64,000 bases of DNA from positions 1,550,001 to 1,614,000 of the forward strand of contig JAKVNF010000001.1 in the NCBI GenBank assembly GCA_022483465.1, in the 5' to 3' direction. The DNA is from Lachnospiraceae bacterium (lineage in GTDB: Bacteria; Bacillota; Clostridia; Lachnospirales; Lachnospiraceae). A program made the position numbers and the translations under genes. Below, piece by piece: positions 5,205-53,965 of the stretch (position 1 is the stretch's first letter; each line of letters begins with the position of its first letter). The notes beneath the pieces are model-generated. The model had not been told where the DNA came from and did not search any database. It saw only the letters and a list, made by a program, of their open reading frames with translations.

Positions 5205-5290
5205 AAAAAGCGGCACCGGCCTCTCTTTTCAGAAAGACGGATGCCGCAAAAATGGCTTAAAAGCAGCGTTTTATTAGGGACCCCGGCATA
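5205..5290. other. attL of integrative element copy 1
   Basis: The sequence GCTTA-AA-AGCAGCG at 5255-5268 marks the left junction; the core AA is 5260-5261. Thirteen bases to its right begins TAGGGACCCC (5275-5284), the mirror image of GGGGTCCCTA found 13 bases left of the core at the right end. The bacterial-side arm, with a GCGGCA/TGCCGC hairpin, recurs at 46932 and 53885, while the element-side arm recurs at 53937. This supports integration by the serine recombinase at 28527-30194. Confidence 0.72.
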
Positions 5291-5322
5291 AAACTACATA
5301 AGCCGAATCTTCAAGCGGGAAT

Positions 5323-5367
5323 AAGAACAGTTCCTGGCAAATCAGCCAAGGACTGTTCTTTATTTTT
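5323..5367. terminator. Strong hairpin terminator at the left end of copy 1
   Basis: AAGAACAGTTCCT pairs with AGGACTGTTCTT around a short loop and is followed by a T-rich run on the plus strand. It insulates the first cassette promoter from transcription entering from the chromosome. The same hairpin is at 53998-54042. Confidence 0.75.
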
Positions 5368-5391
5368 GTGCTAATTTTCTAGGAATATTGC

Positions 5392-5425
5392 TTGCTATAT
5401 TCCGAGCACAGAGTGATGTATGTAC
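5392..5425 (+). promoter_or_regulatory. Cassette promoter motif, copy 1, site 1
   Basis: TTGCTA (5392-5397), 16 bp, TGATGT (5414-5419), then ATGTAC. The TTGCTAT..AGAGTGATRTATGTAC block recurs before five other cassette genes with identical spacing. It can be read as a -35/-10 pair or as an operator. Confidence 0.65.
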
Positions 5426-5450
5426 TACCAAAACAAAGGAGGTACATACC

Positions 5451-6188
5451 ATGAAACTTACATTCAACGTTACCAAGGAAAACAAGAAGGCTTTTGCAAA
5501 GGCCATCGGAGCGATCACCGGAGAAAAGGCAGTTTACCAGTTCACCCCGACCTACGCCTTCCAGATCGGCGACCTTACCGTAAACCGGGATGCAACCCTT
5601 ACTGCTACGGATGACAAAGACCTCCGGAGCCTGCTCGAAGCCCTGAAAGCTCAAGGGTATGAACTGCTCGAGACCGAGGGAGCACTGGAAGATAAGCCAC
5701 TGAAAGAAGCACCTGCTGCAGACGAGAAGCCGGAAGCTCTTGAGGAAGCCCCGAAGCTTACGGTAAGCCTCCCGCTTACCGCTGCAAACGTCGGAACCCT
5801 CACGAACATCCTCTCCTCCAAGGGAGACCTGATCCGGCACGCCCTCGGGGTCACAGACCTCCGAATCAATGTCACCGAGGACAAGATTGAATTCCCTTGG
5901 TTCATCCGGGAGCTTACTGCCGACGAGACACAGGCCTACACCACTTTCCTTTCCCTGCTCTGCAAGTTCTCGAAGGAACTGAAGCACGCCAGCAGCAGGC
6001 CAGTCGAAACGGACAATGAGAAATACGCCTTCCGCTGCTTCCTTCTCCGCCTTGGCTTTATCGGACCGGATTACAAAGAAGCACGAAAGATCCTGCTTCA
6101 GAACCTGACCGGGAATTCAGCATTCCGAAATGGCGCTCCTGTAAAAGTGGAATCTACTGAGGCACAGAAGCAGGAGGCATCAGAATGA
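5451..6188 (+). CDS. Conserved mobile-element protein ('virulence protein' family), 245 aa
   Basis: This matches a family widely annotated as 'virulence protein' in Firmicutes conjugative elements; no biochemical function is known. Visible parts are an N-terminal domain (MKLTFNVTKENKKAFAKAIG), an acidic Pro/Ala/Glu linker at about residues 75-105, and a C-terminal helical domain with YAFRCFLLRLGFIGPDYKEARKIL. The start at 5451 follows AAAGGAGG; a longer in-frame start at 5388 would run through the promoter motif. It overlaps the next gene by 4 bp. A paralogue lies at 54126-54863. Confidence 0.88.
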   Translation: MKLTFNVTKENKKAFAKAIGAITGEKAVYQFTPTYAFQIGDLTVNRDATLTATDDKDLRSLLEALKAQGYELLETEGALEDKPLKEAPAADEKPEALEEAPKLTVSLPLTAANVGTLTNILSSKGDLIRHALGVTDLRINVTEDKIEFPWFIRELTADETQAYTTFLSLLCKFSKELKHASSRPVETDNEKYAFRCFLLRLGFIGPDYKEARKILLQNLTGNSAFRNGAPVKVESTEAQKQEASE

Positions 6189-6586
6189 GATATCCAAGTC
6201 AAGACGAGATCCGAAATCTTCGTGAGCACTACCCGGCAGGAGCCAGAGTGGAGCTCCTTGAGATGCGGGACGAGCAAGCCCCGCCGATCAGAATCAAGGG
6301 AACCGTCCGCTACGTAGATGACATCGGAAGCATAGGAGTTGATTGGGACAATGGCAGCTGCCTGAGCGTGGCTTTCGGAGCAGACCGCTGCCGGTCACTG
6401 GTTCCGGAGTTCACACAGACAGTATGGGATCAGATCATGAAGATCCGTGAGAGCGGCGAAAGCAACATGCTCCTCGTACCGGCAGTCCAGCGGATCGCGT
6501 TCGATCTTGGTTACTACGAGCTGATGACCTTCATCGAGGATTACAGGGGAGCCTACGTGACCTTCATCATGACAGGGCACGTCTAA
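6185..6586 (+). CDS. DUF4314-DUF5049 fusion protein
   Basis: A 133-residue protein in which residues 1-75 match DUF4314 (REHYPAGARVELLEM..GTVRYVDDIGSIGVDWDNG, a small beta-barrel fold) and residues 78-133 match DUF5049 (QIMKIRESGESNML..AYVTFIMTG). The two domains are often adjacent separate genes in conjugative elements; here they are fused. The ATGA overlap with the previous gene implies coupled translation. Function unknown. A paralogue lies at 54860-55261. Confidence 0.85.
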   Translation: MRYPSQDEIRNLREHYPAGARVELLEMRDEQAPPIRIKGTVRYVDDIGSIGVDWDNGSCLSVAFGADRCRSLVPEFTQTVWDQIMKIRESGESNMLLVPAVQRIAFDLGYYELMTFIEDYRGAYVTFIMTGHV

Positions 6587-6600
6587 GATCCACAGGTTTT

Positions 6601-6617
6601 GCACAAGAATCTTGTGC
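6601..6617. terminator. Short perfect palindrome after the DUF4314 gene
   Basis: GCACAAGAATCTTGTGC begins 14 bp after the stop codon and is followed by AGTTTATGG. It may be a weak terminator or processing hairpin. The matching site after the second copy (55275-55291) carries one change. Confidence 0.45.
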
Positions 6618-6637
6618 AGTTTATGGTCTACATTTCC

Positions 6638-6671
6638 TTGCTATCACAGGGCTTTAGAGTGATATATGTAC
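6638..6671 (+). promoter_or_regulatory. Cassette promoter motif, copy 1, site 2
   Basis: TTGCTA (6638-6643), 16 bp, TGATAT (6660-6665), then ATGTACATGC. It has the same spacing and same trailing AGAGTGATATATGTAC as the other cassette sites, although the spacer sequence differs. Confidence 0.65.
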
Positions 6672-6723
6672 ATGCAAAAAGGAAAGGCAAACAAGATAAG
6701 CGCATAGCAAGGAGGACAAAGCC

Positions 6724-7158
6724 ATGACGAACATTTTTGAAGAAACCTACAACCGCATTCAGGAAGCAAGAAAAGTCTACAAGGAAGCTACCACCGCAGA
6801 GGAGAGGGACGCCGCAAGGGATACGGTGAAGGCAGCCGAGGACAGGATCGATGCGATGGGCGACATTGCCTGGAAGATCTGGAGAGCCTACGAGAAATCA
6901 AGAGACAACGAAAATGAGATCCTCGACTTCGACGACATCATTTGGGACCGGGATGTGGAAGCCCTCGCCGCCTGCATGAAGGAGAACGGCATCAAGGCAT
7001 TCACCTACTCCTGCCGGGCAACCGACGCGGTCGAGACGCTTTGGCTTTTCAAGAAGGCAGGCTGCACGATCGGCGAGATGGTCGAGGTCAACCTCCGGAA
7101 GGACATCTTCGGAGAAGGCTACGAAAAGGGCCACGCCTTCAAGATGATCCTGAACTGA
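6724..7158 (+). CDS. Conserved mobile-element hypothetical protein, 144 aa
   Basis: An acidic, mostly helical protein of unknown function. Residues 1-45 form a charged helix (NRIQEARKVYKEATTAEERDA) that may be a coiled coil; the C-terminal half carries FDDIIWDRDVEALAACMKENG and FTYSCRATDAVETLWLFKKAG, patterns I associate with hypothetical proteins of Firmicutes conjugative elements. AAGGAGG precedes the start by 7 bases. It has its own cassette promoter motif. The second copy at 55394-55828 is nearly identical and the same length. Confidence 0.85.
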   Translation: MTNIFEETYNRIQEARKVYKEATTAEERDAARDTVKAAEDRIDAMGDIAWKIWRAYEKSRDNENEILDFDDIIWDRDVEALAACMKENGIKAFTYSCRATDAVETLWLFKKAGCTIGEMVEVNLRKDIFGEGYEKGHAFKMILN

Positions 7159-7351
7159 AAAAGAAGATCAGAAAGGGAGTCACGAAATGTTACTCCCTTC
7201 CAAAAACCGGGATGGAGTAACGAAACGTTACCCCATCTCTCTTACAGGTTTCTTTGAAAATGCCAAATCTATACGGATCGCTGCGGCGGTTCTTTTTTGA
7301 GCGACACAGATTCTCCGTCAGACATTTGTACATATTATACGTCTAATTTCC

Positions 7352-7385
7352 TTGCTATATATTGCCTGCAGAGTGATATATGTAC
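7352..7385 (+). promoter_or_regulatory. Cassette promoter motif, copy 1, site 3
   Basis: TTGCTA (7352-7357), 16 bp, TGATAT (7374-7379), then ATGTACATGCC. It has the same invariant spacing as the other five sites. The 190-bp gap upstream also holds an imperfect GTTACTCC/GGAGTAAC hairpin around 7190-7222. Confidence 0.65.
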
Positions 7386-7429
7386 ATGCCAAAGGGAAAA
7401 GGCACACAGAAGAAACGGAGGACAAAGCC

Positions 7430-7669
7430 ATGTGGAACAAAGGAAGCCTTTTAATACCAACAGACGACGGAGAGAAAACCTGCAGATACTGCGTAAAGAC
7501 ATGCGGCGAAAAGAGTGAGACCTACGGAATCGAGGGCGGCAGGATCATAAAGATGGAGATCAGGGTTGACGGAAAGCAGACCCTCCTCTACGAAAGAGGC
7601 TGGGAAGTCGAGCCGGAGGATGAAGCAAGCCAGCTTGCCTACGCGGTACTTCTTAAGAAATTCAACTAA
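7430..7669 (+). CDS. Small conserved mobile-element protein, 79 aa
   Basis: A small protein with two cysteines (CRYCVKTC) followed by an EYGIEGGRI-like beta segment (TYGIEGGRIIKMEIRVDGKQTLLYERGWE) and a C-terminal AYAVLLKKFN. This C-terminal pattern is common in short hypothetical proteins of Firmicutes integrative elements. The start at 7430 follows CGGAGGACAAAGCC, as in the other cassettes. Function unknown. It is nearly identical to 56005-56244. Confidence 0.82.
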   Translation: MWNKGSLLIPTDDGEKTCRYCVKTCGEKSETYGIEGGRIIKMEIRVDGKQTLLYERGWEVEPEDEASQLAYAVLLKKFN

Positions 7670-7724
7670 GCTTCAGGAAGCGTTGCTGAAGCGCAGAGTG
7701 CACAAACTGCAAAAGAAATTTTGC

Positions 7725-7783
7725 TGCGGCGGGGGGAGGGAAAAATCCCTGTGGCCAGATCATGGCTGACCGCCGCCCCCTCT
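7725..7783 (+). terminator. GC-rich hairpin ending the cassette array
   Basis: GCGGCGGGGGGAGG pairs with the complementary CCGCCGCCCCCTC about 35 bp further on. It lies 55 bp after the last cassette gene. A related GGCAGGGGGCGG hairpin ends the capsid gene at 28159. Confidence 0.55.
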
Positions 7784-7964
7784 TCCGTTAATTTCCGCGA
7801 AATTGCAAGAGGGGGTATTCAAGTCCGACACCAGCCTCAAAGCGGCTTATTTCCGCGCTTTATCGTCTATCTAGCAGCGTCATAAAGTTTATATACTTCA
7901 GATAGAATCGGCCAATTGTATCGATTTTCGAGTACATCAGGCGCCAGCTTTGTAGAAAAATACC

Positions 7965-8002
7965 GCACCAGAGCGAAACTCTCCGGTGCGGCACATTTTA
8001 GA
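7965..8002 (-). terminator. Terminator of the res gene
   Basis: CCGCACC and GGTGCGG enclose an AGAG/CTCT inner stem; on the minus strand the hairpin is followed by TATTTTTC. It lies immediately after the native res stop codon at 7998-8000. Confidence 0.65.
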
Positions 8003-8069
8003 ATACATCAGCTATTGGCTGCCAATGCTCATCTGCCATATCTTCGGCAAACACAGTGTTATTGATATA

Positions 8070-8377
8070 GGCGTTAGTTAAGAAACGGGTTGATAAGCGA
8101 TCGCCTAGCATGAGACCACTAATCCCTCACTTTGAGCTCGAGCTGGGTACACTCCTATCCGTGCTGTGTTGCATCATGTAACAAAGCATCACCTAGATTG
8201 CCTAAAAGCATACACCCACTTGCCGAGCATGTGACTATAAATAACAAGATAGGCATTATGCAGAGAAGAAAAGAGCTCCAAATGGGGATTCTATATCTTC
8301 ATCAGACATTATCGCGTCGAGAGTTCACCATGGAGGTTGTGGTATGGAACCCGTCAACCCGGTTCTTTACTAACGCC
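8070..8377. mobile_element. 308-bp MITE (GGCGTTAGT ends), copy 1
   Basis: The ends are GGCGTTAGTTAAGAAACGGG and, inverted at the other end, GGCGTTAGTAAAGAACCGGG. The 8-bp duplication TTGATATA flanks it (8062-8069, 8378-8385). The homologous empty site is present at 57858-57870, so the boundaries are certain. Its ends resemble those of the IS1595 element at 33689, the likely source of transposase. It has no gene of its own, though a frame beginning TTG at 8132 stays open through the right end. Confidence 0.93.
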
Positions 8378-10551
8378 TTGATATAAAGATGGTTATCCTT
8401 GTCGCGAACAAATCCCCAGTTCAGTTTATGGGCAGACGCATAGTGCTTGAATGCTTCAAACTTATTCTGAATCTGCCGGTCAATGTTCTTATCCTTTCCT
8501 TTTGCCTCTCCACCTTTTGTTTCAATCACCCAGATGGTACCGTCTTTCTTCTTTATGATGTAGTCAGCGTAGAAGAGCCACTGATGCCAAAGCGAATCCA
8601 GATATACGATAGAGAAGTATTGCTGACCGCTGTCGCCGTTCTTGTAGACCCAGTCTATATCGTCACGACCTTCGCAATACTGCTCGAACAGCTGCTCAGG
8701 CATACTGCGGATCAGCGAGGTGGCAAATCCGGAAGTGTATTCCTTATAAGCGTTGCTCAGATATTCGACTTCTTCCTTCACACCCGGGTCGTACTTGAAG
8801 AAGTCCTGATCCGGAATGTGAAAATCCGATACCTTTGGTTCCGGCATGTGCATCTGAATATTGCGCTCGCCCTGCTTGGACGCCGCTTCTCTGAATTCTT
8901 CCTTGAGCAAATGCACATTGTTGATAACAAAGGCGTAAAATTCTGCTGTCTCAAGAGATAGTACCTTCTTGTTGCTTGCGCGTCCCTTGCGGAACAGCCG
9001 CTCCAGAATGGTTTTCACCTTTGCGGTCGGCATGCCAATGGTCTGCTTGATCTCGTCCGTGCAATGCAGGAGCTTGATGCCATCCTTGTGCGTGTCAAGC
9101 TTCTGCCGTGTCTGAATGTAGGCATTAGAATCACGCAATGCATCCGTCCGGACGAATGTCCCTTGCAGCGCCCGACCATATAGCGTACTTCCTATTCTGT
9201 AACCCGAGCCTTTCAGAATATCTGCATTCTCGCTGAACTTCTTAGCGGAATCCGGGTTCGTGCTCAAATGATACTTCTGCATGAACAGGTCATAAATCTT
9301 GTACCAGACCTCACGTTCACCGAGACCGTGATACTCGAGGTCACGAATCTGCTTTGGCAGCGTGAATGTCTTGCACTTCTCCTTCAGGAACAGCCTTCTG
9401 GTCTCGTATGCCTTGTCAAGACTTGAAAGCAGACCTGCTTTGTACTCCTCATCAAACGTGTAGACATAGCAGAAATCGAGAATGTCATCGTCATAATGAT
9501 GCGCTTCCGGCATTCGGCGGATTCGTCCGATTGTCTGGATCGTAAACTGCTCACTCATGCCTTCGCGAAGCTTCACTAGAATCTTAGCTCGAGGGCAGTC
9601 CCATCCGGTACTGATTGCCTGTTTCATGAGAAGGAACACGGGCGTGGCGTTATTTTCCGTTAGGTCATCCGGAAGGTCTTTCTTATCCTCGCTCATCCAC
9701 TTGCTGGCAAGGCCGTTCTCATAGGTGTAGCCCATATCACGCAGTTTATCCTCTACGGCCTTGATCGTTTCAGGCTGTCCGCTAGGGAACTGAATCAGCA
9801 CGAGCGGCCGGATATTTTTTCCGAGAGCTTTATACCGCGCAGCAATTTCTTTGCGCTTTGCGTCAGCCAGATCGAGAAGAATGTCATAGTCATTGCCGAT
9901 ATCTGTATTTGCTTCGATGCCCTCATTGACGTAAATCGCTTTTGTGATCAGTCCGGCATCAATGACATCCTGCTCATCAATCTCGAAGAATTCGTACTTC
10001 TTATTCTGGATGGCAGTAGCAGACACACGAATAATGTTCTTTGCCGCAAAAGCGTCTATGATCTCCCGTGCTTTGCTTGTATTGTTCGAGTGCTCCTCAT
10101 CGATGATAACGACAAAATCAATATGGTTGCGATGAGCCTCCGCAATCCGGTCAAACAGGTTCTTGCGCTCACTGTCACGGATAGCTGTGTTGCCGCGTTT
10201 TGTCACAAGCTCCCAGTTGATGAATGTCGTGCTTTCCGGCGTAAAACCATTTTGCAGAGCATCGAAAAGATTCTGTGTGTCACGCTGCGGGGCAATCCTC
10301 TCCATTTTCTTCCGGCTCTGTTCCTCCAGATCGCCCTTACCCGGGCAAAGCCAGACAAATGCCGTGTTCTTGTTCACGCTGTCCATATAGGTAACAACGA
10401 AGTCAATCAGGATGATCGTTTTGCCTGCGCCGGTCGGTGCTTTCATAACGATGGTCTGCCTGCTGTTGCTGTTGGTCGTAAAATCAATCAGCTTCAAGAC
10501 AGCCTGCTCCTGAAAGTCAAAGATATGGTCGAGCGTCAGTCCGTTTACCAT
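8302..10551 (-). CDS. res: Type III restriction enzyme, Res subunit
   Basis: The ATP-dependent restriction subunit of a type III system. Walker A APTGAGKT lies near residue 40, DEEH near 150, helicase motif VI QTIGRIRR near 340, and a PD-(D/E)xK nuclease core with IETKGG near 674. The stop used now lies inside the MITE: the native 745-residue end (seen at 57796) is replaced by about 26 MITE-encoded residues ending SMVNSRRDNV. The catalytic domains are untouched, so activity may survive. It overlaps mod by 7 bp. Confidence 0.9.
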   Translation of the reverse strand: MVNGLTLDHIFDFQEQAVLKLIDFTTNSNSRQTIVMKAPTGAGKTIILIDFVVTYMDSVNKNTAFVWLCPGKGDLEEQSRKKMERIAPQRDTQNLFDALQNGFTPESTTFINWELVTKRGNTAIRDSERKNLFDRIAEAHRNHIDFVVIIDEEHSNNTSKAREIIDAFAAKNIIRVSATAIQNKKYEFFEIDEQDVIDAGLITKAIYVNEGIEANTDIGNDYDILLDLADAKRKEIAARYKALGKNIRPLVLIQFPSGQPETIKAVEDKLRDMGYTYENGLASKWMSEDKKDLPDDLTENNATPVFLLMKQAISTGWDCPRAKILVKLREGMSEQFTIQTIGRIRRMPEAHHYDDDILDFCYVYTFDEEYKAGLLSSLDKAYETRRLFLKEKCKTFTLPKQIRDLEYHGLGEREVWYKIYDLFMQKYHLSTNPDSAKKFSENADILKGSGYRIGSTLYGRALQGTFVRTDALRDSNAYIQTRQKLDTHKDGIKLLHCTDEIKQTIGMPTAKVKTILERLFRKGRASNKKVLSLETAEFYAFVINNVHLLKEEFREAASKQGERNIQMHMPEPKVSDFHIPDQDFFKYDPGVKEEVEYLSNAYKEYTSGFATSLIRSMPEQLFEQYCEGRDDIDWVYKNGDSGQQYFSIVYLDSLWHQWLFYADYIIKKKDGTIWVIETKGGEAKGKDKNIDRQIQNKFEAFKHYASAHKLNWGFVRDKDNHLYIKALVKNRVDGFHTTTSMVNSRRDNV

Positions 10552-12317
10552 GATTCACCCTCCTCCCGCAGTTCAAAATCGAAATAGTAGTCCGGGATGA
10601 TATATACTGGAATGTTCTCAAAGAGTGATTCCTGCTCCGTGGTAAGGAGCACATTTTTCGAGAGGTAGATGGCACTGACATCCGGATACTGATCCCAGTG
10701 CGAAGAAATATCATCCGCCTGTTCATCAGTCAGGATCATGAGATATCTCTTGCCATCCAGCTTGATGCCATTCTCCAGCTGGATCATTTCGGCAATATGC
10801 TGCAGAAGAGCATCCGACAGATATTCTGCATCTTTGGCTATAAAGTCCGTCTTATAATATTTTAGATTAGCAGGAATACCATCCGAATATTTGCTGCCAT
10901 TTGGACGGATGCCTGTAATTACCGTTTTTACTCTGGGATATGTTACACTCTCGCAGATATCATTCTCATTATTGGTGCAAAGAATAAAACGACGGTTGCC
11001 TCCATCCTCACGATTCTGTTCAAGCATAGCCTGAGCTGTGGTTCCCGAGCCTGCAAAAAAATCAAGTACAGTGATATTTTTATTTTCGATTAGTGTCAAA
11101 ATTAATTTTATAAGGCCAGTATTTTTTGGATTGCTAAATGGAGACTTTTCTACCCCAAATATATTTTTTAACTCCGATTTAGCGGAGGTCGTTTTAACAT
11201 CGATTTCAAAATTAACTTTTTTGTTATCAACCACTGCTTTATATTTACGATTACTAATAATGCTTTTGATTCTAACACTTGTACTGAAATTCTTTTCGTA
11301 TATCTTCCCGTTTTTAAAGTCAAGTGCTTCCTTTTCATACAATTCATTTAGCTTATCAGCTGTATATGTATTTAGAACAAAGCCATTATTATTGTATGAA
11401 TAATATCTCTCGTATCCTTCTGAAATGAGCTTTGTATTAATGGCATCTACAGAAGTTTCTTTAACGATCTTCATATCCCTATCTGATTTTCTGTAGTACA
11501 CTGTATAGTGCTTTTCACTAGAGAAATCATCTACATTATCATTAAAATCATTCTCTCCAACAAGGACACGTTTCCCACTATTGTGAACATAATTACCATC
11601 TTCATCCTGTGCAAGATCCCTAACATCCTTAGGTATATTTTCGATAAACTTACTGCACAGTTTGTTTTTTGCATAAATCAGAAGATATTCGCTACTTATA
11701 GATACAAAATCGGAATTTTTTCTTCCCTTTGGATTATTTTCAACCGTCAGCAGCGCAACAAAATTATTTTCTCCAAAAATTTCGTCGCATAGCAGTTTCA
11801 AGTTTGCCTGCTCATGGTCATCTATACTTATGAAAATGATGCCACTCATTTTCAATAAAACACGAGCAGATCTAAGCCTTGAACTCATAAAAGAAAGCCA
11901 CTTGCTATGTCGAAACGTATCATCGTTCGCAATAATTCGGTCATTATATATAAAATCCTTTTTCCCCGTGTTGTATGGTGGATCTATATATATAACATCA
12001 ATCTTTCCTTTATGCGTTTTCTCTAGTAGTTTCAAGCAATGTAGATTGTCTCCCTCGAGCAGAAAATTATACTGCCCGCTCTCATCGGATGTGATTTCCT
12101 TGCTGTGGTCTTCAGTGAACACGGGGATATAATCTTTCATTTTTACATCTACGGCCTCTTCGTGCTGTTCCCAGACAAGACCGTATTTTTTTGAATTCAG
12201 TTCATTCTCGATTTCTCCGATAGCACGGAGGACTTTGTCATCGTCCGTGTGCTCCCGCTTTAATGTATCCAGAAAGGCAAGCATGCGTTCGCGCTTCTGC
12301 TGTGACAAATTTGCCAT
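10545..12317 (-). CDS. mod: Type III DNA methyltransferase, Mod subunit
   Basis: A 590-residue DNA N6-adenine methyltransferase that provides the recognition function of the type III system. DPPYNTG (catalytic motif IV) lies near residue 110 and the SAM-binding FFAGSGTTAQAML (motif I) near 420, an order typical of beta-class Mod enzymes. The intervening 200-410 region is the target-recognition domain and is clearly more AT-rich (about 11050-11760) than the flanks, suggesting domain exchange. Transcribed with res. Only its first codons survive in copy 2 (62105-62171). Confidence 0.93.
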   Translation of the reverse strand: MANLSQQKRERMLAFLDTLKREHTDDDKVLRAIGEIENELNSKKYGLVWEQHEEAVDVKMKDYIPVFTEDHSKEITSDESGQYNFLLEGDNLHCLKLLEKTHKGKIDVIYIDPPYNTGKKDFIYNDRIIANDDTFRHSKWLSFMSSRLRSARVLLKMSGIIFISIDDHEQANLKLLCDEIFGENNFVALLTVENNPKGRKNSDFVSISSEYLLIYAKNKLCSKFIENIPKDVRDLAQDEDGNYVHNSGKRVLVGENDFNDNVDDFSSEKHYTVYYRKSDRDMKIVKETSVDAINTKLISEGYERYYSYNNNGFVLNTYTADKLNELYEKEALDFKNGKIYEKNFSTSVRIKSIISNRKYKAVVDNKKVNFEIDVKTTSAKSELKNIFGVEKSPFSNPKNTGLIKLILTLIENKNITVLDFFAGSGTTAQAMLEQNREDGGNRRFILCTNNENDICESVTYPRVKTVITGIRPNGSKYSDGIPANLKYYKTDFIAKDAEYLSDALLQHIAEMIQLENGIKLDGKRYLMILTDEQADDISSHWDQYPDVSAIYLSKNVLLTTEQESLFENIPVYIIPDYYFDFELREEGESW

Positions 12318-12642
12318 GTAAACACCTCTTCCTTATTTCTCAATCATTACCCGGATCTTTGTCTTATCAGTCTTTTCCAGTGTGTCCTGATCAAGGCAGC
12401 GGAGACGTTCTGAACGGATCAGCGCATCCACAGCCGCTTTGCCGTAGCTGTCCAGCGACGCATACATCCGGAGCGTTTCCGAGTAGTCATCAGCTATTGC
12501 CCATCTTCCGAGCTGATCGATGCCTTCTTCTGAAAGTCTGGGAGAAGATGCATCCTCAGATCGTCCGGTCAGATAATCAAGCCTGACGTCAAACAAATCG
12601 CATAACTCATTCAGTTTATCAAAATCCGGCATCCGCTTGTCT

Positions 12643-12966
12643 GTAAGCGTAACAACCACCGTACCCTGACTATGACGAGCCTCCTCTGTAGAATGAAGCC
12701 AGGAATCAACTAGCTCATGCTACAGAGGAGGCTTTTTATGAACACAAGCACAGCAGCCTCTTCTCGTATTCGGATGAGGGTGCTACCGCCCGTATGATTG
12801 CAAATTCCATTGCAACAACCGCAGAGCTGAATGGCGCAGACCCAGAGTGCTGCTTCCTGTATCTGCTCATCGAAATGCCGAAGTACCAGAAGCGGGGAGA
12901 CAGTCCAGACGAGTATCTTCTAAAGATGATGTGCTGGTCCGAAGAATACAAGGCCTTTGAAGTCGA
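12643..12966 (+). pseudogene. Internally deleted, diverged IS66 (left end plus TnpC C-terminus)
   Basis: The left end and leader hairpin (12678-12733, with ATG at 12738) are joined directly to the last roughly 75 codons of an IS66 TnpC (SSLFSYSDEGATARMIANSIATT and onward). The sequence differs from the complete IS66 at 15231 throughout, so it comes from a relative and not a recent duplication. The reading frame runs on into the EAL fragment. Confidence 0.8.
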
Positions 12967-13627
12967 GTCCTGTATCCGCAGAGTTCTGAAGAACGATGGA
13001 ATTCCGGTGTACTTCCAGCCGATCTGGGACGCGAAGACCGGCGCCATCGTCGCCGCGGAGGCACTGATGCGGGTCACGGACCAGGAGCTTGGCTACGTGC
13101 GCCCGGACATCCTCGTCGCCACCGCCGAGCGGTGCGGCCTCATCGGGGCGGTGGACCTGCAGGTGCTCGAAAAGGTCTGCCGGTTCATCCATGACTGCCG
13201 CCCCCAGGACCACGGGCTGAAGTACGTGGAGATCAACATCTCCGTCGGCGAGATGCTCGGCGCAAACCTCGCACGGGACTACACGGACATGCTGCACCGC
13301 TACGGGGTGCCGGTGGAGATGATCAACATCGAGTTTCTCGAGACCTTGCGCAATGATGACTCCTAGGTCTTCCAGCAGGCCAAGAAGAGCCTGCAGGACG
13401 CCGGCTTTGCCTTCTCCCTCGATGACTTCGGCACGGAGTTCTCAAACATGGGCCGGCTGTTCAACAACAATTTCACGAACATCAAGATCGACAAGAGCCT
13501 TCTCTGGGACGCGGACAAGGATCCGAACTCGAGGGAGCTCCTCGCCTCGCTGACCGAGATGATCGAAAAGATGCGCTTCGTCCCGCTGCAGGAGGGCGTG
13601 GAGACGAAGGAGCAGCTCACTCTCTAG
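12967..13627 (+). pseudogene. EAL-domain (c-di-GMP phosphodiesterase) fragment with in-frame TAG
   Basis: The core of an EAL domain is recognisable: EALMR, the metal/substrate segment YVEINIS, the IEFLET glutamate, DDFG, KIDKSLL and the final EGVET. The frame is continuous from 12967 to 13627 except for one TAG at 13364-13366 after NDDS. Both the N-terminal region of the original protein and the end of the domain are missing; the latter was cut near 13618 by the IS110 insertion. The segment is noticeably more GC-rich than its surroundings. Unlikely to be functional. Confidence 0.85.
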
Positions 13628-14221
13628 ATAAATTTGTACATAATCCACAATGAGCCTTAATCTATAGGGGTTTGAGAGTAAGACCTCTGTGAAAAATGTA
13701 TGCTTTAACATTACAACAGTGCATGACTACGGGTGAAATCGGTGTCTCTGGAGGTCCGGACACCTATGATTTCTGTGTTCAGGGTACAAAAAGAAAAGCA
13801 TCCTCTTAATTGTCTGACAATAGTGACATTAGCTGTCAGTATAAGAAACGCGTTTCAATCTCCCTGCTTCACCATGGCTGCCAACCTCTCATGTCTAGCG
13901 GAGTCTGCCTTCGGTCCCACCCGGAGGCATCCCAAATTCCTTCGTACAGCCGATCCCATAGTTCGGAGCGCCGCTTATGCTTTCGTTCGGGGTCATATGC
14001 CCCATGGAGTAAATCCTGCGGCTACGCTCATGCTCTGTTTGTTTGAGAGCACCCCTGTAATTCAGTAAATCTCGGAAATCCCGGGGGACGCATCCCTGGA
14101 TCCACACTGAAGTACATGGTGCGGTTAATACGTTACAGTTGAGGGGGAGTCATCCTAACGGTGTTGCCTGGTAGATAACCGCCCTGTTGGTCCTTGAAAC
14201 TGTCTGCTGTCCGGCTGCGCG
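13628..14221 (-). other. Non-coding 3' region of the IS110 remnant
   Basis: About 590 bp with no credible gene, downstream of the IS110 transposase. Long non-coding flanks of IS110/IS1111 elements encode the guide (bridge/seek) RNA, and some hairpin-forming stretches are present (for example around 13920-14110). I cannot define loops or a promoter by eye, so this is a candidate location only. Confidence 0.45.
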
Positions 14222-15230
14222 TTATGCAGGCATCATACCTGCCGCAGGATCGTGAATGACCTTAGACGGGTCAAAATCAACGCCTTTACGGAGGATTGCG
14301 TGGAAGATCCTCAAAGCCTTGCATGCCACTACTACGCGCGCCTGACGCCGTTTTAGAGGGTTCGTTGTCCGTGTGGTGTATTTGACCTGTAAGGCCTTAA
14401 ATGCACTGTTCCAGGCTATCAGAGACCCCGCAGCTTCATACATGACTCGTCTTAAGGCAGAACGCCCTCGCTTGCTGATGCGATGTTCACCGACCTTCTT
14501 GCAGGATTCGTTGTTAATCGCATTCAGTCCGGCAAGCTTCACCAGCTGCTTGGGATCGCTGAAGCGGTTGACATCGCCCACCTCTGCAATGAATCCCACA
14601 ACTGTCTGCATTCCGACTCCGCGTATACTCAACAGCTTGTCGACGTTAGGAAGCCGGCGAACCTGCTCTTCAAGTTTCCTGTCAAGCTCCTCCAGCCGTT
14701 CACTGTTCCTGCGGAAATCCTCAAGAATGTACAGGAAGGCAACTTTTTCAGCGGCGCAATAGTCCAGCCACATGTTTGCTGCAGCGGCCTCCACAAGCTT
14801 TTCAGCCTTTTTCCTGCCGCCGGTGCCCCGCATCTTTTTCGATTTCCACAAGAGCAGAATTCCGTCAACGCCAAGTTCATATACGTCTCGAGGCAGCGAT
14901 GCTATTTCCAGGACAGCCAGGCCGCCCTTGGAATCATACTTTGAATAGCAATTCAGGTATTCCGGGAAGTTTCTGCGCAGCCATGCCTGCATACGGTTCC
15001 GGGCCCTCGCCATGTTCTTCACAACGCTTTCCCTGACATTGAACAGGCTGCGGATCTCAGCGTAATCTCCCTGCGGATCATACGGTTCAAAGAAACGTCC
15101 TTCCCGCACCAGATCCGCAATGACTCGGGGATCCTTCTTGTCGTCCTTGCTTGGGGAGTTATCATCCAGCTCCTTCGATCTATGGACATGGAGTGTGTTC
15201 ACCGTAACAATCTTGAAGCCCTTTTTGGTC
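14222..15230 (-). pseudogene. IS110-family transposase, N-terminally truncated
   Basis: The remaining 326 or more residues carry the C-terminal transposase_20 domain: LPNVDKLLSIRGVGMQTVVGFIAEVGD (helix-hairpin-helix), then FSDPKQLVKLAGLN and the serine region RISKRGRSALRRVMYEAA. The upstream codons (DQKGFKIVTVNTLHVHRSKEL) continue to 15230, where the IS66 begins, so most of the RuvC-like DEDD domain at the N-terminus is missing. Not functional alone. Confidence 0.85.
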
Positions 15231-15267
15231 GTAAGCGTAACAACGGACGTACCATGACCCGGATCAA

Positions 15268-15327
15268 CCTCTTCTGTAGAATGAGGCTAGGAAACTACTA
15301 GCTGTGTTCTACAGAGGAGGCTTTTTT
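15268..15327 (+). promoter_or_regulatory. Leader hairpin masking the tnpA ribosome site
   Basis: CCTCTTCTGTAGAA pairs with TTCTACAGAGGAGG, so the AGGAGG of tnpA is inside the stem; a run of T follows just before the ATG. The structure can act as terminator or translational brake. The same design occurs at 12678-12737 and 42116-42175. Confidence 0.65.
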
Positions 15328-15846
15328 ATGGACAAGAGACAGCAGATGGTTCGTGAGGAGAAGCTTCGCTATTGGAGGCCGATCATCAATGCGTACGAGA
15401 ACAGAGAAACGAAGCTGATGTCGATTGCACAATGGTGCAGGGAGCATGAGATCAACGTCTCGCTCTTCTACTACTGGAAAAACGTGATCAGGGAGACGGA
15501 CGCCAGTAACAGGAAGGCATCCTCTGTTTCAGTGCCAGAGACAGAGAACTTCGTAGACATCACCGATATCGTAAACGGACATGTACGCCCTGATGTCAAT
15601 ACAATAGGCTCGGAACCGGGTACTGCTGATGACTCGGGTTCCCGCAGCCGGTCGAACCACTCTGATCTTCCGCGGATCACCGGTACACCGGAAGAAGGAA
15701 ATGCCGGATCTGTTCCAGGCAGGCCGGGAGGGCCTGCCGTGTCTCCGGAAGTTATCCTGGAGACACGGTCCTGTCGGCTCTATCTCTACTCTTCTGTCCG
15801 GCGCGAGACCCTCTCCATGCTTAAGGAGGCTTTTCATGTTTGTTGA
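15328..15846 (+). CDS. tnpA: IS66 TnpA accessory protein
   Basis: A 172-residue accessory protein of the IS66 family, with an N-terminal helix-turn-helix-like region (YWRPIINAYENRETKLMSIAQWCREHEIN) and a low-complexity middle. The start at 15328 is the ATG directly after the leader hairpin. The stop overlaps tnpB by 11 bp, which implies translational coupling. In IS66 elements TnpA and TnpB are needed alongside TnpC for transposition. Confidence 0.85.
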   Translation: MDKRQQMVREEKLRYWRPIINAYENRETKLMSIAQWCREHEINVSLFYYWKNVIRETDASNRKASSVSVPETENFVDITDIVNGHVRPDVNTIGSEPGTADDSGSRSRSNHSDLPRITGTPEEGNAGSVPGRPGGPAVSPEVILETRSCRLYLYSSVRRETLSMLKEAFHVC

Positions 15847-16225
15847 CGGCATCGGCTTCAGGAAGATCATTCTCTGCACGAAGAGGGTGGATATGCGCCG
15901 CGGCGTTGATGGACTCTCCGCTTATGTCATGCTGAACTATCACCTGGATCCAACGGACCGTGGAGTTCTCTATCTTTTTCGTGGCAGATCTGCCAGAACG
16001 ATCAAGGGGATCTGCTTCGAGGGAATCGGCACTGTGCTCTATACGCTTCGCCTTGCGCCGGGAAACTCATTCCAGTATCCCAGGAATGCGGACGAAGCCA
16101 GATCTCTTTCTCCGGAGCAGTACCGTCAGCTCATGAGCGGAATCGCACTTGACGGTACCATCCGCGAAGTATACCCGCACATCGACATGCCTGATCAGGT
16201 GGCCGCAGAATCCCAGAGATCCTGA
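15836..16225 (+). CDS. tnpB: IS66 TnpB (Orf2-type) protein
   Basis: A 129-residue protein with the IS66 Orf2 pattern: KIILCTKRVDMRRGVDGLSAYV, then GVLYLFRGRSARTIKGICFEGIGT. The start is the ATG at 15836, downstream of AAGGAGG and overlapping tnpA. The length fits the family (about 115-130 residues). Confidence 0.9.
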   Translation: MFVDGIGFRKIILCTKRVDMRRGVDGLSAYVMLNYHLDPTDRGVLYLFRGRSARTIKGICFEGIGTVLYTLRLAPGNSFQYPRNADEARSLSPEQYRQLMSGIALDGTIREVYPHIDMPDQVAAESQRS

Positions 16226-16281
16226 AAACACGCGGTTTTTGAACTTTCAGGCTACTTCAGTGGGGAGTATAAATATTCAGA

Positions 16282-16363
16282 TATCTATACCCTTATTTTC
16301 GGTTGACAAGAGGGTATAGATATGTTACTATACTCCTGAGAACTGATAAGCAGCTCTCAGGAG
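16282..16363 (+). promoter_or_regulatory. Promoter, 13-bp inverted repeat and SD-masking hairpin before tnpC operon
   Basis: TTGACA (16304-16309), 17 bp, TACTAT is a near-consensus promoter. ATATCTATACCCT and AGGGTATAGATAT form an inverted repeat around the -35 box, a plausible operator. Downstream, CTCCTGAGA (16333-16341) pairs with TCTCAGGAG (16355-16363) and covers the AGGAGG of the next gene. Confidence 0.7.
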
Positions 16364-16370
16364 GTCTGAC

Positions 16371-16748
16371 ATGGGTACCATTCATCTGAGACAGGGGGAT
16401 ACGGTATACGTTTATTCTTCACACAGCTATTGGGACAAGGAGGCTAAACAGCACAAGACAGACCGGAAGCTGATCGGGAAGCTTGATCCCGTTACAGGGG
16501 AGGTTGTGCCCACCAGGAAGTACGTTCGAAAGCAGGCATCGGCCTCCGACGCACCAGCAGAGCAGGCAAACTCTGTTCGGGCTGAAGGTTCGACGAAAAC
16601 TTTGATTTCCAGAATAACAGAGCTGGAGGAGGCAAATGCATCTCTGCGGAATGAGAATACACAGCTGAGGAAGGCTCTCCGCGCCTATCAGGATGCCGTT
16701 CAGAAGGCCAGCGCAAGCCTTGCTTCCGTAGACAAAGAGGCCCGGTGA
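16371..16748 (+). CDS. IS66-associated small protein, 125 aa
   Basis: A small protein encoded between tnpB and tnpC in this IS66 subtype. It begins with a beta-rich part (GTIHLRQGDTVYVYSSHSYWDKEAKQHKTDRKLIGKLDPVTGEVVP) and ends with a leucine-rich coiled coil (ITELEEANASLRNENTQLRKALRAYQ). Its stop TGA shares bases with the tnpC ATG at 16748, so the two are translationally coupled. It may help TnpC oligomerise; that is inference. Confidence 0.75.
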   Translation: MGTIHLRQGDTVYVYSSHSYWDKEAKQHKTDRKLIGKLDPVTGEVVPTRKYVRKQASASDAPAEQANSVRAEGSTKTLISRITELEEANASLRNENTQLRKALRAYQDAVQKASASLASVDKEAR

Positions 16749-18976
16749 TGGAAACCGAGATCCCTGTCCAGAGACTTCATAAGTACAACCTCCTGTACCA
16801 GTGTGGCGCTTTCAGTCCGAGCGACATCTCGAACATCTTTAGTGAGGTTATCGTGGATGACATCGTCAAGACGAACCGCATTGCAGCGCTGATAAAGGCA
16901 GCTGAAAAAGCAGCTGAAGATTATAAAGCGCTGCAAAAGGAAAATGAGGAACTCAAACAGAAGGAGCAGAATAAGGACGAGAACAACAAACTCGGACGTA
17001 GGAGAGCCTTTGGGGAAAAGGACGAGCAGCTCTCTGGGAAAGAACTCGAAACCGGGATTCCACAAGGCGGCAGCGAGGATGTGGAGACAGATCCGCTCAC
17101 CGAAGAGTCTGACGCTGATGGAGAGCAGGCCAAAGACACGACAGGGACAGAAGCACCTGCAGAGCCAGCCAATGCAGACGAAAATGGGAAAGACAGTGAC
17201 GGAAAAACTCAGGATGAGAATCCGTCCGGGAAAGGCGGAGCTGGCGAAAAAGACAGGAAACCCAGACGGAGCAGCCGTCCCCCGAGAAAACCGATACCCG
17301 ATGAATCAAAGGAAAAACAGAAGCGCAAGCCAGGCATCTGGGAGCGTGATACGCAGAATCTCCCGCACAGAATCAGCTATGATGTGGATGATCTGACTCC
17401 GGAAATGATCGAAAAAGCAAAGTCTTTATCTAAGCTGGGATTCGAAGCAAGAGAAAAACTCAGTATAGAGGAGGCTCATGTCGTCGTGCTGACGATCATG
17501 AAACCAATCATCGCATACTCAGAGGATGTCAGCAACGAAGAAAAATCCGATCCTGACAGTCATGAGGTGAATCGTACGCTATACCGGCCCTACAGCGAGG
17601 GATATATCATGCCGGGATCCCGGGCAACCCCGGAGATCGTCGCCTTCATGTACTACATGCTGACCAGTATGAGCATCCCGTACAAACGCATCGCTGCTCT
17701 GATCTGTCACATGGGCTATCCCATGAAAACGCAGAAAACGGTTTACTGGTGCAATACCTGTGCCGCAAGATATCTGCTTCCCGTCTTCGATTATCTCGTC
17801 AGCTTCATCATAGCGGGCAAGTACATTCAGATGGATGAAACCACCTGGAGATCCATCTATGATGCTGAGAAGCCGGGAGAAAAGTCCTATATCTGGCTGC
17901 TGATTACAAGTGAGCTGCGGGAAGGTCCCAAGGCTGCTGCATATTTCTTCAATCCCTCCAGGGCTGAGTCATTTCTGGATGGTCTGTTTGCAGACTTTCT
18001 TCCGGATAATGACGCGGATCGTTCGGATACCGCAGGCCAGACAACTCCGCTGGAACAGGAAACGGAGCCCGATCCTACGGCAGTGACAGGAAATGCATCT
18101 GTCGTATGCAAGAACGACAAGTATGCTGCATATCCGGAACTGGAGCGCAAGTCTGAAGGAAAGATCGTAGTCTCATTCTGCCTTGCGCATCTGAGAAGGC
18201 CGTTCTTTCTTGCCTGGTTTATTGTAAAGATGGCCTCAAAAGACCTCATGAAAACGGAGGAAGGCAGAAAACAGCTGGCACAGACCTGGGAATGGAAAAT
18301 CCTGCGCGAGATCAGCCTTGCCGAGAGCGAGGATACGAAGCTCAAGCGCCTGTCCGGAGAGGAGCGGGTTGCCGGAAGAATCAAAAACGTAAAGCCGCAC
18401 CTGGATCTGGCCTGGCAGTACATCTGTGAGTATGAGGAGGCCTATCAGGCCTCGCTGCATGGTACTTCCTCTGATCAATCAAAACGAGTAACGATGACCG
18501 CGACGATGCGCAGGGCGATGAACTACTTTGAGGACTGCAAGAAAGGCGGTCACATCGACAGCTTCCTCTACGATTCTAACGTACCTGCGGACAACACTTA
18601 CTGTGAAAGAAACATCCGTAGGATTGCTTTGCAAAGAAACAGCAGTCTCTTTTCTTATTCAGATGAAGGTGCCACCGACCGCATGATTGCGAACTCCATC
18701 GCAACAACAGCGGAATTGAATGATGCCGATCCGGAGTACTACTTCCGGTATCTCCTCATCGAGATACCCAAGCATCAGAGGCGGGGAGACAACCCAGATG
18801 AATATCTTCCAAAGATGATGTGCTGGTCCGAAGAATACAGGGCATACGAAGCGAAGCAGCGAGAAGCCACACAGGCCGGGAAAGGTATCAGTTTTCAATC
18901 TGAGACAGAACCCATCCTGGTAAATGGCCGGTGGATGCGAGATGGAAAGGTGGTCGGCCCATACCCGGCAGCATGA
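16748..18976 (+). CDS. tnpC: IS66-family DDE transposase TnpC
   Basis: A 742-residue transposase, larger than the usual 510-550 because of an N-terminal helical region and a long acidic, Lys/Pro-rich linker (about residues 75-200). The DDE domain includes IQMDETTW, VSFCLAHLRRPF and the C-terminal SNVPADNTYCERNIRRIALQRNSSLF segment with the catalytic Glu. A GTG three bases upstream is an alternative start. Intact, and near-identical to the gene at 38467-40695. Confidence 0.9.
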   Translation: METEIPVQRLHKYNLLYQCGAFSPSDISNIFSEVIVDDIVKTNRIAALIKAAEKAAEDYKALQKENEELKQKEQNKDENNKLGRRRAFGEKDEQLSGKELETGIPQGGSEDVETDPLTEESDADGEQAKDTTGTEAPAEPANADENGKDSDGKTQDENPSGKGGAGEKDRKPRRSSRPPRKPIPDESKEKQKRKPGIWERDTQNLPHRISYDVDDLTPEMIEKAKSLSKLGFEAREKLSIEEAHVVVLTIMKPIIAYSEDVSNEEKSDPDSHEVNRTLYRPYSEGYIMPGSRATPEIVAFMYYMLTSMSIPYKRIAALICHMGYPMKTQKTVYWCNTCAARYLLPVFDYLVSFIIAGKYIQMDETTWRSIYDAEKPGEKSYIWLLITSELREGPKAAAYFFNPSRAESFLDGLFADFLPDNDADRSDTAGQTTPLEQETEPDPTAVTGNASVVCKNDKYAAYPELERKSEGKIVVSFCLAHLRRPFFLAWFIVKMASKDLMKTEEGRKQLAQTWEWKILREISLAESEDTKLKRLSGEERVAGRIKNVKPHLDLAWQYICEYEEAYQASLHGTSSDQSKRVTMTATMRRAMNYFEDCKKGGHIDSFLYDSNVPADNTYCERNIRRIALQRNSSLFSYSDEGATDRMIANSIATTAELNDADPEYYFRYLLIEIPKHQRRGDNPDEYLPKMMCWSEEYRAYEAKQREATQAGKGISFQSETEPILVNGRWMRDGKVVGPYPAA

Positions 18977-19416
18977 TAACCTCCTGACAAACAGAATAAC
19001 CCGAGTAGCCGACGTCTGCCGAACAGGCAGGCATCGGCCACTTGCAGTTGCATAAGTGAAACTGCAGAATTGAACGTCCGGCATGGTATTGTTCCCACCC
19101 GGGGAATCGCCATGCCGGACTTTCTTGTGTCTGGATCCATCGCTTCAGGGTGACAGGAGACTGGGACCCGGATGCCCAACCTATCCAGGTACACGGAGAC
19201 GCCCATCACAACCGGCGTACCTGCAGGCCAGATCCGAACCTGCGCAGTTCATTCCCAGGGGATGCGTCGGCCGAAGGCAATACACCTGCAAAGAGATTCA
19301 CCTCCGCTGTCAACCGCGAATCTCTGAAGTATTTGCGGTTACAACTGGAACCCTCCCCCCCTTAATGGTAACGCCTCATGCAGGTTTTGTCAGCGTACGC
19401 TGGTTGTTATGCTTAC
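18977..19416 (+). other. Non-coding right end of IS66
   Basis: About 440 bp without a gene, present in both IS66 copies. It contains a long stem pairing GTCCGGCATGG (19077-19087) with CCATGCCGGAC (19111-19121), and shorter palindromes. It probably holds transposase-binding and termination sequences. Confidence 0.6.
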
Positions 19417-19603
19417 GCTTGTCTGTTTCCCACATGGCTACCGTTCCTTTTGATACGCCAAGATTATCTGCGAGCGTTACCTGCGTATAGCCGTTCTTTT
19501 TTCTCAGTTCTTTTAACCTTTCTCCTATCATAACGAATACCTCCTATGTGAGAATAATATCCTATTTGATGTGCTTTCGTCAACCATATTTTATTTATTT
19601 GTA

Positions 19604-19911: not shown

Positions 19912-19949
19912 TATTTGTAAATATTTATATTGTTTTTGTGAGATACGTG

Positions 19950-19978
19950 TTGACATAGGTAACGCATTGTGATATTTT
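19950..19978 (+). promoter_or_regulatory. Excisionase promoter, copy 1
   Basis: TTGACA (19950-19955), 17 bp, TATTTT (19973-19978), 60 bp upstream of the xis start. The same sequence is at 62706-62734. It is the natural target of the divergently encoded XRE repressor. Confidence 0.7.
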
Positions 19979-20038
19979 CAAAATGTAAAATCTAACATAT
20001 AGTGAGATTTTAAGATCAACAGAAAGGAGGAACGGGAA

Positions 20039-26812: not shown

Positions 26813-26829
26813 GAAGGAGGAAATCAATT

Positions 26830-46929: not shown

Positions 46930-47010
46930 AAAGCGGCACCGGCCTCTCTTTTCAGAAAGACTGGTACCGCAGAAATAGCTTAAACACGGGCTTTTCCGGG
47001 TCTTTTTTAG
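46930..47010. other. Apparent empty attB for the serine recombinase
   Basis: Left arm GCGGCACCGGCCTCTC..GCTTA matches the chromosomal arm at 5205-5259; core AA is 46983-46984; right arm CACGGGCTTTTCCGGG matches the chromosomal arm at 30263. No element sits between, so this looks like an unoccupied integration site. Confidence 0.65.
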
Positions 47011-47045
47011 TTCTGCCGAATTAGCAGAGCGACTGTCTCGACGTG

Positions 47046-47131
47046 CCCCGAGACAGTAGAAAAAATAATCATACCGGTTCATGCTATCTGAGAATTGGTC
47101 AAGATTGGGACATGCTGTTCGGGAATTTGTC
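47046..47131. repeat. IS21-like left-end array, site 2
   Basis: GCCCCGAGACAG is followed by units ending GAATTGGTC (47100) and GAATTTGTC (47131), 31 bp apart. Same structure as 43354-43465. It opens the segment carrying the radical-SAM pair and ending at istAB. Confidence 0.6.
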
Positions 47132-52847: not shown

Positions 52848-53622
52848 TGCAGAAACCGACCGCAAGCTCCGGGTGCTGGGCGTCCCGGAGATGGTTGTTG
52901 CGTATCAGGAACAAACGAAATCCATGGATCGGGTCAACCAGCCGTTTGAGAAGCGGCTTGCTGAACTGGTCGATGCAGCCTATCAGGCCAAGTACAACGA
53001 GAAAGTAGAGCATCTCCTGAAGGCTGCTCATCTCAGGATTCCCACTGCGGATGTCACTCAGATCCTGTACGACGATAAGAGGCCATTCAGCAGGGAGCTT
53101 GTGGATGAACTCGCCACCTGCCACTTCGTGGAGCAGCACACGAGTCTGATCATCCAGGGTTATCCCAGCTCAGGCAAGACTTACCTGTCCTGTGCCTTCG
53201 CGAAAGAGGCGTGCAAGAAGCACTACAAGACCGCTTACATCCGGATGAGTGATCTTCTCAGCGCTGATGAAGAGGCACGCATATCCGGGATTCGCGAGGA
53301 GAAGCGGCTGCTGCGGAAGTACAGCCAGTACCAGGTACTCGTAATCGACGAATGGCTCACCACTGGCGTAGATGAGGATGAGGTTCGCTTTCTATATGAG
53401 TTGGCAGAGCGCCGCTTCGACTCCACCAGTACGATTTTCGCCACCCTTCATGACAAAGCCGAATGGCTGGCCTGTCTTGGAGAGGGGGCCCTCTCCGAGT
53501 CGATCATCGAGAGGTTTACACACAATGTCATCGTACTGAACACTGGAGAGAACGACTTCCGGGCAGTTTTCGAGCACCGGGATCCGCCATCTCTGGGCTC
53601 CTTCGGGGCGACAGCCAACTGA
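52834..53622 (+). CDS. istB: IS21-family helper ATPase IstB
   Basis: A 262-residue AAA+ ATPase with Walker A QGYPSSGKTYLSC near residue 107, Walker B VLVIDEWLT near 172, and the IstB C-terminus IIERFTHNVIVLNTGENDFR. AAGGAGG precedes the ATG at 52834 inside istA. It selects and bends target DNA for IstA in the known IS21 mechanism. Confidence 0.92.
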   Translation: MAMLDAETDRKLRVLGVPEMVVAYQEQTKSMDRVNQPFEKRLAELVDAAYQAKYNEKVEHLLKAAHLRIPTADVTQILYDDKRPFSRELVDELATCHFVEQHTSLIIQGYPSSGKTYLSCAFAKEACKKHYKTAYIRMSDLLSADEEARISGIREEKRLLRKYSQYQVLVIDEWLTTGVDEDEVRFLYELAERRFDSTSTIFATLHDKAEWLACLGEGALSESIIERFTHNVIVLNTGENDFRAVFEHRDPPSLGSFGATAN

Positions 53623-53665
53623 AGGTGGCACTGAAGAGCGGAAACAGAGGTTTAATTCACGGAAG

Positions 53666-53700
53666 GCATGCTCCGTCCACACGACGGAGCATGCTTCATT
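53666..53700 (+). terminator. istB terminator
   Basis: GCATGCTCCGTC (53666-53677) pairs exactly with GACGGAGCATGC (53683-53694); TTCATTGTT follows. Confidence 0.7.
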
Positions 53701-53757
53701 GTTCCGGAATACTCATGCAGATGAAGATTCTGCATCGCTTTTTTTCTATTCCTGGTC

Positions 53758-53840
53758 AAATAGCCTTTCCACAGTCACACCCCCCGAAAATAGCAAAGCT
53801 ACAGTCTCGCCAGTTAAAAATTCATCCAAATAGCCTTCCC
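53758..53840. repeat. IS21-like right-end array
   Basis: Three units AAATAGC..CTTTCCACAGTC, AAATAGC..GCTACAGTC and AAATAGC..TCCCACAGTC, about 30 bp apart. They match 46775-46893. Multiple short repeats near the termini are usual for IS21 ends. Confidence 0.7.
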
Positions 53841-53874
53841 ACAGTCACGCCAGACCAACTTTCACATTTTTTCT

Positions 53875-53965
53875 AAAAGAAAACGCGGCACACGCCTCTC
53901 TTCTCAGAAAGACGGATGCCGCAGAAATGGCTTAAAAGCAGCGTTTTATTAGGGACCCCAGCATA
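53875..53965. other. attL of integrative element copy 2
   Basis: GCTTA-AA-AGCAGCG with core AA at 53935-53936, and TAGGGACCCC starting 13 bases to the right (53950-53959), as at 5260. The chromosomal arm to the left resembles those at 5205 and 46930. Confidence 0.72.

Follow-up and report, generated by a model that had tools for sequence, protein, structure and literature searches.

The 64,000-nucleotide stretch of Lachnospiraceae DNA analysed here (the window) probably carries two related phage-satellite-like elements, each with its own DUF4368-containing recombinase of the TnpX kind; intrinsic terminators would serve as attB for this clade, and in the window the attB would be the region downstream of rlmD. 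As read from the DNA letters, the attachment sites are real and base-exact. The proposed use of near-palindromic intrinsic terminators as attB by the DUF4368/TnpX-type clade is well supported by sequence comparison of relatives of the window recombinase. For a nearly identical enzyme the terminator rule appears in one case, and the window's own sites, which show no such hairpin, are an exception to it.

The two elements and their attachment sites

The coordinates of the two elements and of the junctions of element 1 are as follows.

5260..30262, + strand: element 1, about 25 kb from core to core, delimited by its junction letters
5260..5261, + strand: AA core of attL of element 1, with the element-side half-site at 5262-5284
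30238..30262, + strand: element-side half-site of attR of element 1 with its AA core (30261-30262)
53935..64000, + strand: element 2, starting with the AA core 53935-53936 and running beyond the window to G000:C1:1619407

The dinucleotide AA is read at 5260-5261, 30261-30262, 46983-46984 and 53935-53936. A preliminary description had placed junctions with a common 2-bp AA core at 5260, 53935 and 30261, and all of its letters are correct. It had also predicted an empty attB by joining the chromosomal arms, and this sequence (GCTTAAACACGGG) is present at 46978-46990 with no element in it. Since the empty site has GCTTAAA in common with attL and AACACGGG in common with attR, the overlap is exactly AA, and attL, attR and attB thus have a 2-bp core in common, as is the case for large serine recombinases.

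The attP arms GGGGTCCCTA and TAGGGACCCC each lie 13 bp from the AA core. The element arms run CTAAGGGTTTCCATAGGGACCCC and AGCAGCGTTTTATTAGGGACCCC outward from the core, and the symmetry described earlier as perfect holds for the outer ten positions, which are identical and form a 10-bp in-register inverted repeat, but not for the inner 13, which match at six. When AA positions in the window were joined at random 200,000 times, five joins gave an in-register inverted arm of at least 10 bp. With the core base as position 1, the arms occupy positions 15-24 in our own mapping, and the ZD motif of the LI integrase is placed at positions 16-24 in the part of PMC3783163 available. It is plausible by this analogy that the zinc-ribbon domains read the attP arms, as had been proposed.

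The sequence GGGGTCCCTA-N13-AA occurs twice in the genome, at window position 30238 and at G000:C1:1619383-1619407, so the left end at 53935 has a right end of its own. This consists of the same 25 bases and lies 58 bases from the contig end, making element 2 about 15.5 kb long. Its recombinase copy is 98% identical to that of element 1, and the backbone common to both elements is found in pieces of 91-100% identity. One explanation for the two copies is a single integration followed by duplication of the element with its flanks, and the left flank is indeed common to both and the element segments are 97-100% identical. We regard this as improbable, because the left 2 kb are 91% identical, the right flanks are unlike, and copies of the flank exist that are empty.

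The main genes are the following.

28500..30194, + strand: large serine recombinase, 564 aa, with Resolvase, Recombinase, zinc-ribbon and DUF4368 domains
26951..28084, + strand: HK97-type major capsid protein gene upstream of the recombinase, with a copy in element 2
20181..22537, + strand: P4/D5-type primase, encoded by two ORFs in element 1 and by a single 785-aa ORF in element 2 (L004 2937-5294)
8302..12317, - strand: Type III-like restriction enzyme (749 aa) and methyltransferase (590 aa), cargo

Matches above cut-off to the Resolvase catalytic, Recombinase and zinc-ribbon Pfam families bear out the earlier assignment of the enzyme as a large serine recombinase. DUF4368 is also present (PF14287, E 6e-25), and the nearest solved chain to residues 26-141 is the N-terminal domain of TnpX (PDB 2mhc, E 7e-40). 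The cargo of element 1 looks like a Type III restriction-modification system.

P4-like satellites and capsid-forming PICIs carry a P4-type primase, a capsid gene, an integrase at one end and defence cargo, and the elements described here likewise have a P4-type primase, a capsid gene, an integrase at one end and defence cargo. Capsid-forming satellites (cfPICI-like) combine a capsid with packaging genes such as terminase and portal. In contrast to these known satellites, the ORFs scanned here, a subset of all ORFs, include no terminase, portal or tail gene. We call the elements satellite-like. Among 37 related recombinase loci (see below), several of them truncated, an HK97-type capsid relative is present in 21 and a primase in 13.

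Several other features of these elements were noted. In loci L041-L076 the capsid gene accompanies the recombinase without packaging genes among the scanned ORFs, and the relative element L046 encodes (at 2865-3872) a YhcG/DUF1016 nuclease (PADLOC PDC-S02) beside a Type III-like methyltransferase, which constitutes defence cargo. An ORF at the left end of element 1 (5388-6188) has an amidoligase PHROG match (E 5e-54). The window contains a 3979-nt inverted repeat of 99% identity (15226-19204 and 38239-42217) with an IS66-type transposase ORF in each arm, and one arm sits within element 1. MITE-like repeats of about 309 bp, with ends near GGCGTTAGT/ACTAACGCC, are present in both orientations (8069-8368, 19603-19902, 25980-26279 and 60333-60966), and an IS1595-type transposase (60999-62003) adjoins one cluster of them.

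Target sites downstream of rlmD and the site of a near-identical enzyme

The empty site in the window lies next to the remnant of a gene.

46978..46990, + strand: empty attB GCTTA-AA-CACGGG (site C), core at 46983-46984
46985..47048, - strand: last codons (HVETVALLIRQN*) and downstream sequence of an rlmD-type gene next to the empty attB, gene body absent

A second empty 13-mer is present in the same genome at G000:C3:389187-389200, where a 150-bp region around the site recurs with 91% identity, the identical 13-mer and no element. The targets are therefore not all in one island, and the earlier suggestion of several equivalent targets in a single island gives way to four sites that are copies of the rlmD downstream region, one of them on another contig. 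The last codons of an rlmD-type gene stand beside site B (VETVALLTRTN*), site C (HVETVALLIRQN) and site D (HVETMALLIRQN), and from these similarities we take the local targets to be copies of the rlmD 3′ end and downstream region. Site B may represent the native rlmD locus, cut by the contig end; the two rumA-family genes above cut-off in this genome do not end in the rlmD site sequence. Short copies of the rlmD 3′ end without a gene body are seen at two places, 46978-47050 and L006 (G000:C3:389131-389280).

The site region was matched in four of the 99 genomes searched, including the window's own; the others are G088, G111 and G004. The earlier proposal to look for sites without the element in related genomes is answered by two congeners, G088 with an identical 13-mer and G111 with one that is a base shorter, in both of which the site is empty and immediately follows a complete rlmD-type gene (above the TIGR00479 cut-off). 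In G004 (L125, G004:C19:152-238) the homology ends at the AA core with different DNA beyond it, and the break would reflect either another element or a rearrangement.

The core in G088 (766-767 of L123) lies between two opposed terminator-like sites, on the minus strand at 753-716 and on the plus strand at 771-785. A terminator scan of the window found none at the empty site itself; the minus strand beside it folds with a strong stem.

An IS21-family element (IstA, IstB) occupies 49893-53715 of the window. Its ends read TGAATATTCCGGA and TCCGGAATACTCA, and it has a duplication of 7 bp, TGCAGAT; it is absent from the corresponding place in the congeners and represents a separate insertion. We considered whether the attB is part of an IS21 end, given degenerate repeats and the nearby IstA and IstB genes. 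This was rejected because the region and the attB are present in G088 and G111 while the IS is not, and because the IS has ends and a duplication of its own.

A departure from the rlmD location is seen in the MAG UW_DM_ANA1_1 (G061), which encodes a recombinase 95% identical to that of the window (L041) next to the same right end. The same left end was found once in the G061 genome, by a pattern search in which the core was included, and the two ends are on different contigs (L078 left, L041 right). Whether the element ends elsewhere in related genomes had been put forward as a check on the junctions, and this insertion ends at identical bases on both sides. The G061 host arms join to AAATGCCCGAAACCTTAGTA-AA-ATCAAGGCTTTCAGGCATTT, adjoining a tRNA-Arg gene. 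Folded on the tRNA strand, the joined site gives a hairpin whose loop contains the core and whose tail is T-rich (-19.2 kcal/mol, z -5.2). With seven pairs, two of them G-C, it falls short of the paired-arm hairpin criterion given below. In G061, then, the same attP ends and AA core are joined to a tRNA-Arg terminator, and close orthologues occupy unrelated sites, the rlmD region in one genome and this terminator in the other; there is one such case.

An alternative is that the integrase is site-specific for the rlmD 3′ region, with the tRNA-Arg site of G061 a rare secondary site and terminators used by relatives only. As this predicts, the two insertions and the two empty sites of the window's genome all lie in copies of the rlmD downstream region, yet the G061 element, with the same end letters on both sides, is placed elsewhere, and relatives of 48-79% identity are at many different sites. 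We consider strict rlmD specificity doubtful, and below we follow the preferred reading, in which terminators are the targets of the clade.

Insertion sites of related recombinases

A first sample comprised 37 recombinase loci, excluding from analysis those whose match stops short of the recombinase end (L062, L063, L068, L069, L075-L077). Thirty loci were examined for a right end, and 27 have the end motif, [A/G]TCCC[T/A][A/T] followed by N13 and a dinucleotide; it is absent from L042, L064 and L065, and L061, which was anchored wrongly by the script, is retained in the 27. A T5 run is present within 6-28 bases of host flank in 19 of the 27, compared with 5.6% of 20,000 random AA/TT positions, and a T4 run in 20 of the 27, compared with 14.6% of 20,000 such positions. 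The binomial values (2e-18 for T5 and 6e-12 for T4) ignore relatedness and are too small, because the MAGs are related to one another.

Locating the left ends by pattern gave 11 paired insertions, nine on one contig and two split across contigs, and the same core is present at both ends in all 11. When the host arms are joined, a strict stem of at least 7 bp is found in 5 of the 11 pairs, compared with 1 of 110 mismatched arm pairs and 20 of 4000 random sites. Folding energies of -15 kcal/mol or lower are found in 8 of 11 pairs, compared with 24 of 110 mismatched pairs and 344 of 4000 random sites, and eight joined sites entered for folding have z values of -2.6 to -9.1.

A second sample was gathered after the idea had been formed, from 391 genomes of the class, and yielded 18 loci besides the window's own two. 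Dropping L148, which has the same flank as L058, and L156, in which no end was seen, left 16, whose right flanks contain T4 runs in 14 and T5 runs in 12. Eleven of these were anchored by the motif (T4 in nine, T5 in seven) and five (L150-L154) by eye at a different end sequence (T4 in five, T5 in five). Of 14 loci in which a left end was sought, seven had one that could be accepted, judged by its element-end sequence and its core. L149 offered three candidates with the correct core, and the choice among them was made by eye.

For both samples we used a hairpin criterion of at least eight pairs, with G-T pairs and one mismatch allowed and at least three G-C pairs, which was set post hoc and applied equally to the controls. 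By this measure a hairpin surrounds the core in 7 of 11 pairs in the first sample and 4 of 7 in the second, together 11 of 18, compared with 40 of 306 mismatched arm pairs and 128 of 6000 random sites. The seven pairs that fail are L041/L078, L045, L066, L044, L142, L149 and L155, and none of the four sites in the window's own genome passes. The cores agree at both ends in 18 of 18 pairs, an agreement that is not fully independent evidence because left ends were partly chosen by core.

The composition of the half-sites is also informative. In host half-sites read outward (n=41), G is the commonest base at positions 2-7 (20 to 29 of 41) and T at positions 11-18 (24 to 34 of 41, with 34 at positions 12 and 13). 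The element half-sites (n=41) read approximately AGG[G/C]GGT..AACTTAGGGATTT, with the TAGGGAT part in some measure a product of the search patterns. A simple explanation for the T-tracts is a tolerant enzyme preferring an A-rich, AA, T-rich target, as described for Cp36, which strikes terminators merely for their intergenic A- and T-runs. The Cp36 motif is published (in the portion of PMC10083194 available), 7 of the 18 paired sites fall short of the hairpin criterion, and 17 of 20 left host flanks have an outward T4 run, all of which fit. The dominance of G at positions 2-7 is not predicted by such tolerance, however, and the excess of hairpins in true pairs over mismatched pairs remains even though mismatched pairs retain the A/T runs. 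We therefore think A/T tolerance rather unlikely as the whole explanation, and prefer recognition of the terminator's two half-sites.

It is also conceivable that an extruded hairpin, or cruciform, is recognised at the terminator rather than duplex half-sites, and the core does lie in the hairpin loop in 11 of 18 pairs. But L044, L045, L066 and the local sites are unable to form the hairpin, and known serine integrases bind duplex sites (PMC3783163, in the part available), making cruciform recognition highly improbable. The case of L044 is instructive, since its arms cannot pair with each other and yet are T-rich at positions 10-18 on both sides (7 and 7 of 9), which would favour recognition of duplex half-sites. 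Rebuilding of a terminator at attR by the element ends is a weak effect, with a mean of -7.7 kcal/mol compared with -5.2 with random flanks, and 5 of 27 past the 5% tail.

A collection of viral contigs contained no relative, and the best matches among phages (24 records) and plasmids (45 records) were all below 60% identity.

Proposed target recognition and similarity to known systems

Multi-targeting serine integrases, whose promiscuity has been described as relaxed specificity, are under development as tools for integration. In the mechanism we propose, each element encodes the TnpX-type DUF4368 large serine recombinase that integrated it. The enzyme would join an attP whose two TAGGG arms stand 13 bp from a 2-bp core, one on each side, to an attB with the same core dinucleotide. 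In the relatives, an intrinsic terminator would be entered at its loop, with the host arms hairpinned around the core; we infer that a recombinase dimer contacts two duplex half-sites, with no extruded hairpin. A bidirectional intrinsic terminator would present the G-rich-then-T-rich half-site twice, head to head, and the abundance of terminators, their near-palindromic form and their position outside genes may be what suits them as attB. The window enzyme appears to have used the rlmD downstream region; in a congener, two opposed terminators stand on either side of this region. The relatives' frequent insertion into terminator hairpin loops suggests how one enzyme can use many harmless sites.

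A broader possibility, which we advance tentatively and hold to be somewhat less probable than its opposite, is that a large part of the multi-targeting DUF4368/TnpX clade, Cp36 perhaps among its members, evolved to recognise bidirectional intrinsic terminators as attB, and that multi-targeting is terminator targeting and not lost specificity. If so, the inverted-repeat symmetry of the terminator and its T-tracts would be what the two half-site contacts recognise. Were the terminator the natural target, sites would be predictable in any genome with genes expected to be spared, and the symmetry of attB would gain a biological reason. For this genome the analysis provides a base-exact attP and attB and two integrated copies.

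Group IIC introns are retroelements that target intrinsic terminators, inserting beside them and not into the loop. The feature in common is a mobile element with intrinsic terminator targets, and the mechanism is unrelated to that of this integrase. Among the papers listed in searches of openly accessible journal articles, none linked serine recombinases to terminators as targets; the word 'terminator' is absent from the main text of PMC10083194 and from PMC13137831, in the portions available of each.

According to the available sections of the first of these (Durrant et al. 2022, PMC10083194), a multi-targeting clade includes Cp36, Pc01 and Enc9, and 63% of it has DUF4368; the Cp36 motif is A-rich, AA, T-rich, and the targets are presented as A/T-rich and relaxed. 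The window enzyme and its relatives are similar to these in DUF4368 make-up, in an AA or TT core and in having several attB sequences. They differ in that the published sites are A/T-rich, whereas the half-sites here are G-rich then T-rich and often form terminators.

The LI/A118 integrase, in those parts of PMC3783163 available, similarly has a two-armed attP in which an outer motif is accompanied by an inner A-T triplet, located near positions 9-11 in our own mapping. It differs in that its arm motif is shifted inward by 5 bp in attB, and no such shift is seen by eye for TAGGG in the window's attB. TnpX of Tn4451 (PDB 2mhc) is similar to the window recombinase over the N-terminal domain, the sole part compared, and in the relative L046 an ORF with a TnpW domain precedes the recombinase.
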